From Spirochaetota bacterium (GTDB lineage: Bacteria > Spirochaetota > Spirochaetia > SPDA01 > JAJSAL01): a DNA stretch of 64,000 nucleotides. Position numbers and translations under genes: made by a program. The notes below the pieces were generated by a model. It did no database searches. It had not been told where the DNA came from and saw only the letters and a program-made list of their open reading frames with translations. The DNA lies in assembly GCA_024274705.1 (NCBI GenBank), contig JAJSAL010000151.1, positions 19,857 through 83,856 on the forward strand, in the 5' to 3' direction. Shown piece after piece: positions 12,245-47,543 of this stretch; position 1 is the first letter of the stretch; every line of letters starts with the position of its first letter.

Positions 12245-12264
12245 GAATCGTAACGGAACTCACT

Positions 12265-12657
12265 ATGGCTGAACGAAGCGGAGACTGGATAAGACAGGCT
12301 GAAAGAGATATGGAAAGCGCAAAGGCGCAAGCCCGGGATGAGTTCCACGAATGGGCTTGTTTCATCTCGCAGCAGGCAGCCGAAAAAGCGTGTAAAGCTG
12401 TCTTTCAGAACTGGGGTGCAGAAGCCTGGGGACATTCGGTTTCCAATCTGATAAAGGGAATGAAAACTAAGTGCGATATCTCAGAAGAAATCAGCGATGC
12501 CGCCCGAAACCTGGACAGGTATTATATACCGAGCAGATATCCAAACGGTTTTGATTCCGGGACACCGGCAGATTACTTCACAGGGGAAGATGCAGAACAT
12601 GCAATCCGTGATTCAGAAAGAATCCTTCTATTCTGTAAAGATCTTCTGGCTCGATAG
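12265..12657 (+). CDS. HEPN-domain protein
   Basis: 130 residues of mostly helical sequence with WIRQAERDMESAKA at the start, FISQQAAEKACKAVFQ in the second helix and NLDRYYIPSRYPNGF near the end. These are the signatures of the HEPN family (PF05168 type) that pairs with minimal nucleotidyltransferases. The R-x4-6-H RNase motif of HepT-type toxins is not evident in its usual place, since the region reads RYYIPSRYPN, so activity is uncertain. The nucleotidyltransferase gene overlaps its 3' end. Typical of type VII toxin-antitoxin-like modules, but nuclease function is not shown. Confidence 0.82.
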   Translation: MAERSGDWIRQAERDMESAKAQARDEFHEWACFISQQAAEKACKAVFQNWGAEAWGHSVSNLIKGMKTKCDISEEISDAARNLDRYYIPSRYPNGFDSGTPADYFTGEDAEHAIRDSERILLFCKDLLAR

Positions 12658-12997
12658 GATCGAATTAAGAAGTCGGCTCGAATACTCGGCATCCCGGATA
12701 CTTCACGGAAATCCTCTGGTACGAAAAATCATCCTTTTCGGTTCAGTTGCCATGAACAGGGCTACGCCTGCAAGTGATGTGGATATTGTGATCGTCACTG
12801 AAGAAAGCGATAAGCGTTTCATGGATCGATCGATGGATTTTCTCGATTGTTTCCCGGGTATTGATCTCAGCGTCGACATATTTGTGTATACAGGAAAAGA
12901 AATAGAAAATAATCCACCACCCATTTATCTGACTGCAGCAAAGACCGGTATCCTGCTTGCCGAAAGAACCGTATTGACGCAAAAGCGGAGCCATTGA
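12599..12997 (+). CDS. minimal nucleotidyltransferase (MNT) partner of HEPN
   Basis: The ORF track starts at 12497, but AGGGGA seven to twelve bases before the ATG at 12599 supports that start (132 residues). The core KIILFGSVAMNRATPASDVDIVIV is the GS-x(10)-DxD nucleotidyltransferase motif, followed by a third acidic strand (IDLSVDIFVYT). In known HEPN/MNT modules the MNT AMPylates and neutralises the HEPN toxin. The gene overlaps the HEPN gene by 59 bases, in the order toxin then antitoxin. Alternative start: ATG at 12590. Confidence 0.8.
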   Translation: MQSVIQKESFYSVKIFWLDRIELRSRLEYSASRILHGNPLVRKIILFGSVAMNRATPASDVDIVIVTEESDKRFMDRSMDFLDCFPGIDLSVDIFVYTGKEIENNPPPIYLTAAKTGILLAERTVLTQKRSH

Positions 12998-42626: not shown

Positions 42627-42880
42627 TCAGGATAAAAACGCATCCTTCAGCCTTTGAATACGGGCATCATCCATCAAACTCAAAGGGCCGAGCCCTTTCG
42701 CCGAAATAATGGAATCAGCAATAAAATCGGTAATCTCCAGGCGGTCGAAACAGCTCAGGATGTCATTTCCGGATACGATAACACTATCATTTTCTATCAT
42801 TGCAACAGGTGAATTCCCGGAAATCACATCCGCTCCATGATGATGATATCTGTAGGATGGAGTAACACTTCGTTGATCAT
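42627..42880 (-). pseudogene. class II aldolase C-terminal remnant
   Basis: The 66-residue track ORF reads SPVAMIENDSVIVSGNDILSCFDRLEITDFIADSIISAKGLGPLSLM, which fits the C-terminal third of fuculose-phosphate-type aldolases (PAVLLENHGVLVVG, then LLEAFDRLE). The frame stays open upstream to about 42880 but reaches the 3' end of the next gene, so about 130 N-terminal residues with the active-site Glu and HAH are gone. The zinc-binding ENHG is changed to ENDS. It lies at the end of the isomerase-dehydrogenase operon, where an aldolase would be expected. Confidence 0.62.
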
Positions 42881-43806
42881 GAAAGGGTATACCCGCCGGA
42901 AAACACAGCCCTTAAGGCCTGTATCGACGTAGTCAGTTCTTTTTCAAGCAGGTAATCCGAATACTCCCTTCCCATCTTCGGTCCCCCGGTTTCGTAATAT
43001 CCCACCAGGTGGTCTACCGGAAACATCCGGCTGTTCTGCTCGATGAGTGACCTCACTGTTCCAAGGTCCACTATGCCAAGCTGCCGTTCCCCCTCTGAAA
43101 ATCCAAACGTGGAGCTGAACATCCTGTCGGTATTCTTGAAGTGAAACTCAGCCGTCCAGGGAATCTGATGCTCGAAGAGATCCATGTTGGTATGGATGAT
43201 GCGGCCCTTTTGATCTGCATATCCGTGGGAAATATCACCGCACACATATACAGGAACCGTGGTATCCGGGTGATCCTGGTGATACCCGGAGAGTGTACCC
43301 AGCATATAATCCAATTCTTCCGGCAGGGTGGGAGGCTCCGCCAGGGAAGACATGGGTTCCATGGTAAGCCCTTTTAATCCCTTCTCTTTGGCCAGTTCCA
43401 TGAGCTCTTTCATGTGTTTCAGGTAACAGGCGATACCCGTCCCTTTTGTTTCCATCCGGTCCCTGGGAACCGTACCGGGGTTGGAACCGATATAGTCGGC
43501 ACCGAGAAGTGATGCAGCATGGATGTACTGTTCGTAGTTTTTCCGGGCGGCCCGTTCCATGTAGGAATTCCCGGAAAAAAATCCTCCCAATTCCCTGTGT
43601 GTAGTAAAGCAACTTTTAATCCGGACCCCGCACTTCTCTGCATCGTCCTTAAGATCAAAAAAAAACCCGTCTTCCATAGAGTAAACCTCGAAAAAACTCC
43701 CGATTTGCACGTACCGCACATCGATACGATCCATCAACCGGAACAGCCACCTGTGGGAATACCTGTATTCGATGGGATCACTCTTGATGCCAAGACTGAA
43801 TTCCAC
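42877..43806 (-). CDS. TIM-barrel sugar isomerase/epimerase-like protein
   Basis: 309 residues. It begins MEFSLGIKSDPIEYRYSHRWLF. Likely metal ligands are in CFTTHREL, GLTMEPMSS (Glu), VCGDISH (Asp-His) and AEFHFKNTD (Glu-His). The order E-D-H fits xylose-isomerase-like barrels of tetrulose/pentulose isomerases and epimerases. It follows the dehydrogenase gene by four bases and probably acts on its keto product or a phosphate of it. Distinct from the proteins at 23855 and 40272. Confidence 0.74.
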   Translation of the reverse strand: MEFSLGIKSDPIEYRYSHRWLFRLMDRIDVRYVQIGSFFEVYSMEDGFFFDLKDDAEKCGVRIKSCFTTHRELGGFFSGNSYMERAARKNYEQYIHAASLLGADYIGSNPGTVPRDRMETKGTGIACYLKHMKELMELAKEKGLKGLTMEPMSSLAEPPTLPEELDYMLGTLSGYHQDHPDTTVPVYVCGDISHGYADQKGRIIHTNMDLFEHQIPWTAEFHFKNTDRMFSSTFGFSEGERQLGIVDLGTVRSLIEQNSRMFPVDHLVGYYETGGPKMGREYSDYLLEKELTTSIQALRAVFSGGYTLS

Positions 43807-43810
43807 CTGC

Positions 43811-44848
43811 TTAACCCACCCGGAACACTACACGGCTGATGGTTTCCGTTTTCTCCACCATTCTGCGAAACATGTCCACTCCTTCCGAAAGATAGGGCGT
43901 GTGGCTGATGAGGGAACCGACATCCATCCCCCGGTCCATATAATCCAGCACCGCTGTCCACTCATTATGTCCCGACGGCGCGAACCTGGAGTTCCAGGTA
44001 CCGAAAATCCGGATCTCCTTACGGAGAATATGGGAAAAATCCTTCTCGCCGATCCGGAACTCCCCTTCGATGTTTCCTAAAAAGACGACTTCCCCGAACC
44101 GGGCTGCCGACTGCACAGCCTGCAGAAAGGTCTTCGGCAGGCCTACTGCCTCGACTACGCAATCCGCACCGTTCCCCGACGTGAAACCGGAGATTGTCCC
44201 CACCGGATCCGCATCTCCTGCATCGATCGGTATAAATCCCATCTGCTCTGCCAGGTCCAGCTTTTCCCTGTCGATATCAACAATCATGATTTTCCCGGCT
44301 CCCCTGATGCGGAGCCACTGGGCAACCATATTGCCGATTGCACCGGCGCCGAACACCGCAGCAGACGCACCCGGCTTGAAGGAAAACTTGTTCGCTCCGT
44401 GGAGAGCAACAGCGCAGGGTTCTGTCAGAGCCGCGTGGAGAATATCCACATGATCCGGCAGGAGTACCAGGTTTTCCTCCGGGGCGTAGACATACTCCGC
44501 GAATGCACCGTCCCGGCGGGAACCGAGATAATCGTAGTCCAGGCACTGGGCATAGTCTCCGGTCTGGCAGGGTACACAGGTATGGCACGGGATGAGAGGG
44601 AAGACGGTAACCCGGTCACCTTTTTTAAAGGCACTCCCGGAACAGGGATCCTCCACTAATCCTGAAAATTCATGCCCCATAATAAGGGGATGATGATACG
44701 CTCCTCCACCGAACCCCCGGTGGATATCAGACCCGCATATGCCTGAAGCTGCGACTTTTACCAATATCCACCTGTCGCCCGGACATTCCGGCAGGGGTGT
44801 ATCCTTGTATGTCAACCTTCCATTTTCTTCGAGTACAAGAACGTTCAT
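43811..44848 (-). CDS. zinc-dependent polyol/alcohol dehydrogenase (MDR)
   Basis: 345 residues from ATG 44848, preceded by GGAAGGTG. The catalytic zinc region is GICGSDIHRGFGG and MGHEFSG, structural zinc CHTCVPCQTGDYAQC, and the NAD motif GAGAIGNM. This is a sorbitol/threonine-dehydrogenase-type medium-chain enzyme that oxidises a secondary hydroxyl of a polyol or sugar acid. It is divergent from another MDR dehydrogenase at 44996, and the two share a promoter region with a long inverted repeat. Confidence 0.88.
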   Translation of the reverse strand: MNVLVLEENGRLTYKDTPLPECPGDRWILVKVAASGICGSDIHRGFGGGAYHHPLIMGHEFSGLVEDPCSGSAFKKGDRVTVFPLIPCHTCVPCQTGDYAQCLDYDYLGSRRDGAFAEYVYAPEENLVLLPDHVDILHAALTEPCAVALHGANKFSFKPGASAAVFGAGAIGNMVAQWLRIRGAGKIMIVDIDREKLDLAEQMGFIPIDAGDADPVGTISGFTSGNGADCVVEAVGLPKTFLQAVQSAARFGEVVFLGNIEGEFRIGEKDFSHILRKEIRIFGTWNSRFAPSGHNEWTAVLDYMDRGMDVGSLISHTPYLSEGVDMFRRMVEKTETISRVVFRVG

Positions 44849-44867
44849 CATCACCTTCCCGGGAACC

Positions 44868-44896
44868 ATAATAAGATTAATATATATCTTTTTCAA
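44868..44896 (-). promoter_or_regulatory. promoter of the 43811 dehydrogenase operon
   Basis: On the minus strand TTGAAA (44896-44891), 17 bases, TATTAT (44873-44868). Confidence 0.65.
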
Positions 44897-44941
44897 GCAT
44901 TATTTAGATTAGTTGACATGTTTTGACTATTTTTGCTTGAA
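44892..44941. promoter_or_regulatory. inverted repeat spanning both divergent -35 elements
   Basis: TTCAAGCA (44892-44899) and TGCTTGAA (44934-44941) are a perfect eight-base inverted pair 34 bases apart. Each arm overlaps one of the two outward -35 hexamers, so a single repressor could block both promoters. The DeoR gene at the end of the plus operon is the obvious candidate. Confidence 0.55.
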
Positions 44942-44965
44942 TGTTACGTTGATTAAGGATACTAT
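44937..44965 (+). promoter_or_regulatory. promoter of the 44996 dehydrogenase operon
   Basis: TTGAAT (44937-44942), 17 bases, TACTAT (44960-44965), 30 bases before the start codon. Confidence 0.6.
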
Positions 44966-44995
44966 GAGTACACTGAAGGTCGGAGGTCTTACCCC

Positions 44996-46039
44996 ATGAA
45001 AGCAGCTGTCTTAGAGCAATACGATAAACTTATCGTAAAAGACGTTCCCCTGCCGGGGTGCGGGGACAATGATGCTATAGTTAAAGTAAAAGCCTGCGCC
45101 GTGTGCGGATCGGACATACGGATCTATCACTACGGCAACGACCGGGTAAAACTCCCGGCGGTAATGGGGCATGAAATTGCCGGCGAGGTAGTGGAAGCCG
45201 GGAAAAACGTAACCAGGGTCAAAACAGGGGACCGTGTTGCCGTCGGGGCGGATGTACCCTGCGGCGTGTGCTACTGGTGTACTAACGGTATGGGTACCAA
45301 CTGCGCTATCAACTACGCCATCGGGTACCAGTTTCCGGGAGGATTCCAGGAATACATGGTGTTAAACGAAACCACTTTGAACTACGGCCCTGTCACCTAC
45401 ATACCTGATTCCATGAGTTATGACGAGGCTGCCATAGCAGAACCGTTAGCCTGCGCCGTCAATGGACTGGAACTGGCCCGGTTTTCCATCGGTAAGAGCA
45501 TGTGCATCATCGGCCTGGGTCCCATCGGGTGTATGATGCTGGAACTTTCCAGGGTATACGGCGCCTCCCTGGTGTTTGCGGCCCAGCGGTCGAAAAAAAG
45601 GCTGGAGATGGCCAAATCCTTTCTTCCGGATGCACGGTTCATCTCCACCGAAGAGGAAGACCTGGTACAGATCGTCATGGATGAGACCGGAGGAGAGGGG
45701 GTGGACCTGGCGATCACCACCGCCGGTTCGGTCAAAGCCCACGCAGACGCTATAGCCATGGTGCGCCACCGGGGATTTGTAAACCTTTTCGGCGGGCTTA
45801 AGAACCAGCCCGCACTTGAACTGGATTCGAATCTGATTCATTATAAAGAGTGCTTCGTCATGGGAAGTCACGGGTCGCTGCCGAGGCATCACAAAATCGC
45901 GGTAGACTCGATACACAAGGGATATATCCACGCAAAGAAATACATATCCAAAATCTTTCCCCTTTCAGACATACAGGCGGCCTTCGACTATCACGAATCC
46001 CGCCAGGGATTTAAAGTGATCGTCCGGCCGTCTACGTAA
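44996..46039 (+). CDS. zinc-dependent polyol/alcohol dehydrogenase (MDR), second
   Basis: 347 residues with GGAGG before the ATG. Catalytic zinc residues are in CAVCGSDIRIY and MGHEIAGEV, structural zinc Cys in CGVCYWCTNGMGTNC, and the NAD motif in GLGPIGCM. C-terminal GGLKNQPALELDSNLIHYKE is typical of sorbitol-type dehydrogenases. It begins the operon dehydrogenase-epimerase-DeoR. With the divergent dehydrogenase this suggests two oxidation steps on a polyol or on two epimers of one. Confidence 0.88.
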   Translation: MKAAVLEQYDKLIVKDVPLPGCGDNDAIVKVKACAVCGSDIRIYHYGNDRVKLPAVMGHEIAGEVVEAGKNVTRVKTGDRVAVGADVPCGVCYWCTNGMGTNCAINYAIGYQFPGGFQEYMVLNETTLNYGPVTYIPDSMSYDEAAIAEPLACAVNGLELARFSIGKSMCIIGLGPIGCMMLELSRVYGASLVFAAQRSKKRLEMAKSFLPDARFISTEEEDLVQIVMDETGGEGVDLAITTAGSVKAHADAIAMVRHRGFVNLFGGLKNQPALELDSNLIHYKECFVMGSHGSLPRHHKIAVDSIHKGYIHAKKYISKIFPLSDIQAAFDYHESRQGFKVIVRPST

Positions 46040-46054: not shown

Positions 46055-46744
46055 ATGACGAGAACCGGTAAGGGACAATCCATCCGCATATCCCCTTCCA
46101 TGATGTGTACAGATTTTCTCCACCTGGAGGATGAGCTTACACTCTTCGATGAAACCGGGATCGACTATCTCCACATCGATATCATGGACGGCCATTATGT
46201 GCCCAACTTCACCCTGGGTCCCGGGTTCTGCAAAGTGCTGGCGGAACACTCTTCCATACCTATGGACATCCACCTGATGATCGAGAACGTGGATGCCTAC
46301 GTGCCGGTGTTTGCCGGTTTTCCGGACTGCGTCGTTACTTTTCACCCGGAAGTGTGCTATCACCCGTTGAGGACCGTCTCTTTCATCAGGGACCAGGGAG
46401 CCCGCGCCGGCATTGCGGTGGATCCTGCAACACCCCTGGAGTCGGTTAAGCACCTTTTTCCCGATATCGAGTTCATCTGCATGATGACCGTTAATCCAGG
46501 TTATTCCGGCGGCAGGCTGGTTCCCCAAGCCATTGAAAAGATCCGGGAATTTGCAGAGTGCTTTAAAAAGAGCGGGTACGATATCGAAATCGAAGTGGAC
46601 GGCAACGTGAGCTGGGAGAACATCCCGAACATGATAGCAGCAGGCGCTGAGACCCTGGTGGTAGGAACCTCTTCGATGTTCGAGAAAGGGATAAATCGTA
46701 AGCAGAATATTCAGCGCCTTAAGGCCCTCATAGAGGAGTGCTGA
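46055..46744 (+). CDS. ribulose-phosphate 3-epimerase family protein
   Basis: 229 residues with GAGGAGGGGGG before the ATG. HIDIMDGHYVPNFTLGP holds the metal His and first catalytic Asp, MDIHLMIEN the second metal His, MTVNPGYSGG the phosphate loop and IEVDGNVSWENIP the second catalytic Asp. This barrel epimerises ketose phosphates at C3. Its place in a peripheral catabolic operon suggests a specialised pentulose- or hexulose-phosphate epimerase rather than the housekeeping Rpe. The DeoR start codon lies 27 bases after its stop. Confidence 0.86.
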   Translation: MTRTGKGQSIRISPSMMCTDFLHLEDELTLFDETGIDYLHIDIMDGHYVPNFTLGPGFCKVLAEHSSIPMDIHLMIENVDAYVPVFAGFPDCVVTFHPEVCYHPLRTVSFIRDQGARAGIAVDPATPLESVKHLFPDIEFICMMTVNPGYSGGRLVPQAIEKIREFAECFKKSGYDIEIEVDGNVSWENIPNMIAAGAETLVVGTSSMFEKGINRKQNIQRLKALIEEC

Positions 46745-46770: not shown

Positions 46771-47543
46771 GTGCTTGACAGGGAACGACAGGAAACTATC
46801 CTGCGCCTGGTAAAACAAAACACCTTCGTATCTATCCACGACATCGTGGAGCTGGCAAACGTTTCCGAAGCTACCGTGAGAAGGGACCTGGCCCGGCTTG
46901 AAGCATCGGGATACATCCGGCGGGTACGGGGGGGGGCCGAAGCGACAGATGAGCTGAAAAGCCGGGACCCGGTATACCATGAACTTCCTTTTGAATACAG
47001 AAAAGGAATCATGCATGAAAAAAACGCCTTATCGCAAAGCAAGCCGCTTCGATGTGCTTAAGAGGGGAGACCATCATTATCGACGGCGGCTCCACCACCT
47101 ACCGGATGGTGGAATTTCTGACCCCCTTGAAACTCAAGATTATTACCAATTCCTTTGCCATTGCAGAGTACCTCGTAAAGCACAGCGAAAACTCGGTATA
47201 CCTCCCGGGGGGCATCATTTTTCCGGAATCCCAGCTCATCCTGGACCCCTTCGACGAAGACATGTACCGGAACTTCCGCGCTTCAAAAGTGTTCATGGGC
47301 GTGGGAGGTATCGGAACCCAGGGGGTGACCAACAAGGCGATCAACCTGATCCGGGTAGAACGCCTTATGATCGATCAGGCGGATAAGCTCATCATCCTGG
47401 CGGACAGCAGCAAGTTCGAGACTGCAGGAGACCTCCTCCTCTGCGGTTTCGATCGAATCGCCGTCATCATCACCGACAGCGGAATTCCCGAGGAAGCGAA
47501 GGGTTTGCTGAAAGCCCATGATGTGGAAGTCGTAATCGTATAA
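46771..47543 (+). pseudogene. DeoR-family regulator with a one-base frameshift
   Basis: The first frame (GTG at 46771) gives LDRERQETILRLVKQNTFVSIHDIVELANVSEATVRRDLARLEASGYIRRVRGGA, a complete DeoR winged helix, but ends early. The second frame (47052) gives CLRGETIIIDGGSTTYRMVE, VYLPGGIIF and GVGGIGTQGVT, the sugar-phosphate domain. One extra A in the AAAAAAA run at 47018-47024 restores EKKRLIAKQAASMCLRGE and a normal 257-residue protein. Either the regulator is broken, making both divergent operons constitutive, or the read has a homopolymer error, or slippage occurs at the A-run. Confidence 0.85.

Follow-up and report, generated by a model that had tools for sequence, protein, structure and literature searches.

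The heptamer A_AAA_AAC is used for -1 frameshifting by IS1-type elements, though it is described as inefficient in E. coli (PMC4066793). One tested 7-A cassette of a different motif, A_AAA_AAA, gave 10% frameshifting (PMC3711429). Slippage by E. coli RNA polymerase requires a run of at least seven for T and a still longer one for A; an A7 tract led to 0.39% insertion (PMC6260861). Across bacterial genomes, nine A is the commonest slippage threshold (PMC1088944). In a laboratory system, indels placed in 3-8 nt runs of M.HaeIII were bypassed to some extent (PMC3812077). The authors of GeneTack expect single frameshifted genes that are validated by BLAST to be mostly sequencing errors (PMC3711429).

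A DeoR-family regulator gene whose frame breaks at a run of seven A's lies in the window, the whole 64,000-nucleotide stretch of DNA from a Spirochaetota bacterium that was analysed. The regulator is the third gene of one of two divergent operons, and the neighbouring genes in the window are all open and full length. The features are as follows.

42877..43806, minus strand: sugar isomerase/epimerase-like TIM barrel gene, intact, a conserved neighbour
43811..44896, minus strand: divergent zinc-type dehydrogenase gene, intact
44897..44995, no strand: divergent promoter region between the two dehydrogenases, the expected place of the regulator's operator
44996..46039, plus strand: zinc-type sugar/polyol dehydrogenase gene, intact, first gene of its operon
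46055..46744, plus strand: ribulose-phosphate/allulose-6-phosphate 3-epimerase-like gene, intact, upstream of the regulator in the same operon
46771..47061, plus strand: DeoR-family regulator gene, 5' part encoding 96 aa, putative GTG start, HTH_DeoR domain
47003..47007, plus strand: AAGGA, resembling a Shine-Dalgarno sequence and ending 11 nt ahead of the heptamer, probably no more than the Arg-Lys-Gly codons
47018..47024, plus strand: A7 run, site of the frame break, which relatives read across in one frame
47019..47025, plus strand: A_AAA_AAC heptamer, a formal -1 ribosomal slip motif, in the 0 frame
47026..47543, plus strand: regulator's 3' part, encoding the DeoRC sensor domain in the shifted frame, further stops absent
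47052..47543, plus strand: mechanical ORF from ATG 47052, 163 aa, with a 10-nt overlap with the stop of the 5' part

Read directly from the window, the A7 run is flanked by G47017 and C47025. The gene most plausibly starts at GTG 46771, which has ACGGAG upstream, and the 0 frame runs from there to the stop at 47059-47061, encoding 96 aa with only the HTH. Near the break this frame reads FEYRKGIMHEKNALSQSKPLRCA*, ending at that stop. If a base of the A7 run is read twice, the reading becomes EKKRLIAKQAASMCLRGETIIIDGGSTT... and stays open as far as 47543; the -1 frame has zero stops between the run and that position. Joined, the two frames give a protein of 257 aa with the junction sequence EKKRLIAKQAASM. 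Earlier in the gene, a G9 run (window 46928-46936, Arg-Gly-Gly codons) forms a second slippage-prone tract, and it stays in frame.

On the joined protein, Pfam places HTH_DeoR at residues 6-60 and DeoRC at residues 82-237, and the break falls at about residue 84, the start of the sensor domain. The 5' part scores 66.9 bits with HTH_DeoR (PF08220), the N-terminal domain of the DeoR family; DeoRC scores 139.7 bits on the joined protein against 121.4 bits on the 163-aa piece alone. The original prediction, that a one-base shift in the A-run splits a DeoR regulator between its two domains, thus agrees with the coordinates, the frames and the Pfam domains. The best NCBIfam matches are UlaR (154.8 bits), AgaR (149.7 bits) and SrlR (148.5 bits), with every equivalog cut-off above the regulator's scores. 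A PDB search gave a single weak match, the DeoR sensor domain 7l6l. Compared with repressors of the UlaR, AgaR and SrlR type, the regulator has both domains in the same order and with normal spacing once the frames are joined; it differs in that the domains as read lie in separate frames, forming a single polypeptide only on joining, and in scoring below all of these cut-offs.

A search of 395 genomes of the class gave 15 orthologs, and all 15 read through the junction in a single frame with internal stops absent. The order is represented by three genomes, none sharing genus or family with the source genome; G002, one of the two others in the order, has an intact ortholog of 51% identity. Ortholog codons at the junction include GAG AAG AAA, GAA AAG AAA and GAA AAA AAA. 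The longest A-run there can be as short as 2 or as long as 8 bases, so that neither the run nor the break is conserved. The in-frame eight-A state does occur in the family: the L017 ortholog reads GAA AAA AAA CGG at the junction, with eight A's in frame. A genome contig scan found only distant relatives of 38-48% identity in Janthinobacterium, Devosia and Acidisoma, and the Devosia and Janthinobacterium proteins are likewise intact. The split frame is evidently not a chance arrangement, as the joined 257 aa match the intact single-frame orthologs right across the junction, which also bears out the proposed DeoR-type junction restored by one base.

The joined protein has all 35 columns that are invariant in 23 orthologs (35/35), including 21/21 in the sensor part. 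When intact relatives were each left out in turn they retained 25/27, 25/30, 25/25 and 25/26 columns from the junction onward, so the window's regulator keeps invariant columns at least as well as they do. No second lesion was seen along the joined reading. The frame is broken relative to intact orthologs, as in a pseudogene, but the relaxed selection or further lesions of a pseudogene are not found, with 35/35 invariant residues and a second stop absent. Since the invariant residues are retained and there is no second lesion, the break is either very recent or absent from the organism; selection acted on the gene until very recently, or still does.

Three relatives (G002, G056 and G050) retain the whole divergent cluster beside an intact DeoR gene: one strand carries the genes for the TIM-barrel sugar isomerase and one dehydrogenase, the opposite strand those for the second dehydrogenase, the epimerase and the DeoR regulator. 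The second dehydrogenase is 74-77% identical in G050 and G002, its match in G056 being weak. In G017 the cluster genes are all present in rearranged order. The gene order common to three relatives sustains the proposed tie between the regulator and the divergent dehydrogenase operons, both of which it likely controls. No conserved operator emerged from a search of the divergent region, where matches did not stand out from those of shuffled sequences; the window does have one pair of 8-bp inverted repeats lying 34 nt apart.

The source genome is a 4.59 Mb draft assembly of 198 contigs, estimated at 96.6% completeness and 7.7% contamination. Homopolymers were surveyed in 334 kb of this genome, consisting of the window and about 270 kb of stretches. 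In this sample 142 coding homopolymers of at least seven bases have no break, so that homopolymers are not a general weakness of the assembly and a single event of this kind is nothing unusual; the sampled genes contain 78 other A runs of at least seven, all intact. A codon-model Viterbi scan of the 334 kb found many same-strand frame switches, mostly ordinary gene overlaps; by itself the scan cannot separate a gene boundary from a break. Eight runs of at least seven bases lie near a frame switch and, with boundaries judged from context, the regulator's A7 alone was judged not to be a gene boundary. Genome-wide, ABC_tran has 0 stops in 150 matches and BPD_transp_1 one in 93. There are 13 DeoRC matches in the genome and one other is broken, in L013. 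Isolated breaks thus occur in this genome, but homopolymer error is not general.

Several other loci drew attention during this survey. At L013 1558-1878 (G000:C29) the second broken DeoR-family sensor domain adjoins a long transposase-like ORF. A C-terminal remnant of a FucU/RbsD-like gene (L070 5960-6124; profile 99-138 of 138) directly follows an L-fucose isomerase gene. Two URO-D-family genes (L074 17068-18251 and L073 16729-17422) have apparent frame breaks away from long homopolymers, and a sugar ABC permease gene (L085 384-1390, G000:C192) is apparently split over two frames near CGGCCCGGG. In the window, at 12247-12994, a HEPN-domain gene is followed by an overlapping nucleotidyltransferase-domain gene, likely a HEPN/MNT toxin-antitoxin pair.

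At the run the 0-frame phase is GAA AAA AAC, which places A_AAA_AAC, a motif that the original prediction leaves unmentioned, in phase for a protein-restoring -1 slip. This phase is uninformative because any GAA AAA AAA CGC-type junction that loses one A inevitably comes to contain the heptamer. The site shares its heptamer and phase with IS1-type frameshifting (PMC4066793) but differs in being unconserved, outside a mobile element and a by-product of base loss. It also resembles the transcriptional-slippage rescue at A9 runs (PMC1088944) and the M.HaeIII bypass (PMC3812077), each involving a one-base error in an A-run that slippage could partly correct; unlike the A9 cases it has seven A's rather than nine. 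From GeneTack's singleton frameshifted genes (PMC3711429) it does not differ substantially, with one homology-validated break and no conserved site. That polymerase slippage at the seven-A run can give a fraction of full-length regulator, as originally proposed, looks weak given the 0.39% measured at A7 (PMC6260861) and the usual threshold of nine A (PMC1088944), and none of the relatives preserves the run in a controlling role. Full-length product is likely capped at what accidental bypass yields, around or below 1%; a trace of full-length protein could arise without any programming.

The best explanation has two halves. The base loss may be real, fixed and recent, leaving a fresh pseudogene and a derepressed operon, a reading judged to stand at about an even chance. 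A runs are natural slippage hot spots, and the genome has other broken genes or remnants (the DeoRC fragment in L013, the FucU-like remnant in L070 and the permease in L085), but the regulator gene is without any second lesion. The sensor part, free of decay, fits as well with an assembly or sequencing error, in which case the organism itself would carry an additional A and a normal, unbroken repressor. The 198 contigs and 7.7% estimated contamination of the draft point the same way, as does the GeneTack authors' expectation (PMC3711429); the 142 intact coding runs and the in-frame G9 of the same gene argue against an assembly systematically wrong at runs. Such an error is a serious possibility, though held tentatively.

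It is improbable that a low level of full-length repressor is set by -1 frameshifting or transcriptional slippage, whether programmed or selected. The in-frame heptamer, as in IS1-type sites, together with the AAGGA 11 nt upstream could resemble a bacterial -1 site, one 7-A cassette of another motif (A_AAA_AAA) did reach 10% (PMC3711429), and the perfectly conserved sensor domain would be equally in keeping with a gene still expressed through recoding. However, a programmed site should show break and motif conserved in homologs, and 15 of 15 orthologs are in one frame; the heptamer is the inefficient one in E. coli (PMC4066793). Right after the site the RNA folds no better than shuffled sequence (z -0.19 and 0.39); the stronger structure, in a 96-nt stretch after it (z -1.87), has its main stems beginning about 18 nt downstream. 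Programmed transcriptional slippage calls for an A/T run of about 9 (8 in some bacteria), and the seven A's fall below the usual threshold. A newly arisen recoding site or run-length switch, by which a small fraction of ribosomes or transcripts yields full repressor and slippage sets repression, is similarly hard to credit. Replication slippage at a run could toggle a regulator gene, but a phase-variable switch is very improbable here: seven A's is short, the run is unconserved in relatives (2-8 A) and the 78 other A runs are intact. Scarcely credible is a true split into an HTH protein and a sensor protein separately started at ATG 47052 by translational coupling. That ATG does overlap the stop at 47059-47061, but a Shine-Dalgarno-like sequence is not seen before it, the 163-aa product is without the first part of DeoRC (its profile match starts at 19 of 160), and all orthologs are fused.

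Very probably, then, the gene encodes the DeoR-family regulator of this conserved sugar/polyol operon, and its Lys-Lys-coding A-run falls one base short of what the frame requires, the contraction being either recent or confined to the assembly and having no programmed role. If the loss is real, it would have originated by replication slippage, and the cell would make a 96-aa stub with the HTH but no sensor domain. The operon would most likely be derepressed, and polymerase or ribosome slippage would supply full-length protein at most in trace amounts, around or below 1%. The frame is broken, the relatives are intact, the neighbourhood is conserved and decay is absent; loss of the repressor is plausible solely if the base loss is real. 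The case is an ordinary one: a singleton frameshift in an operon regulator of the DeoR family, due to a recent one-base slip or to an assembly error, and not a new control mechanism. A seemingly perfect slip heptamer can arise automatically by base loss from a Glu-Lys-Lys-coding A-run, and such a by-product should not count as evidence for programmed frameshifting. If the break is real, a one-base slip has cost one strain its control over a conserved sugar/polyol operon, and regulatory loss of this type is common.
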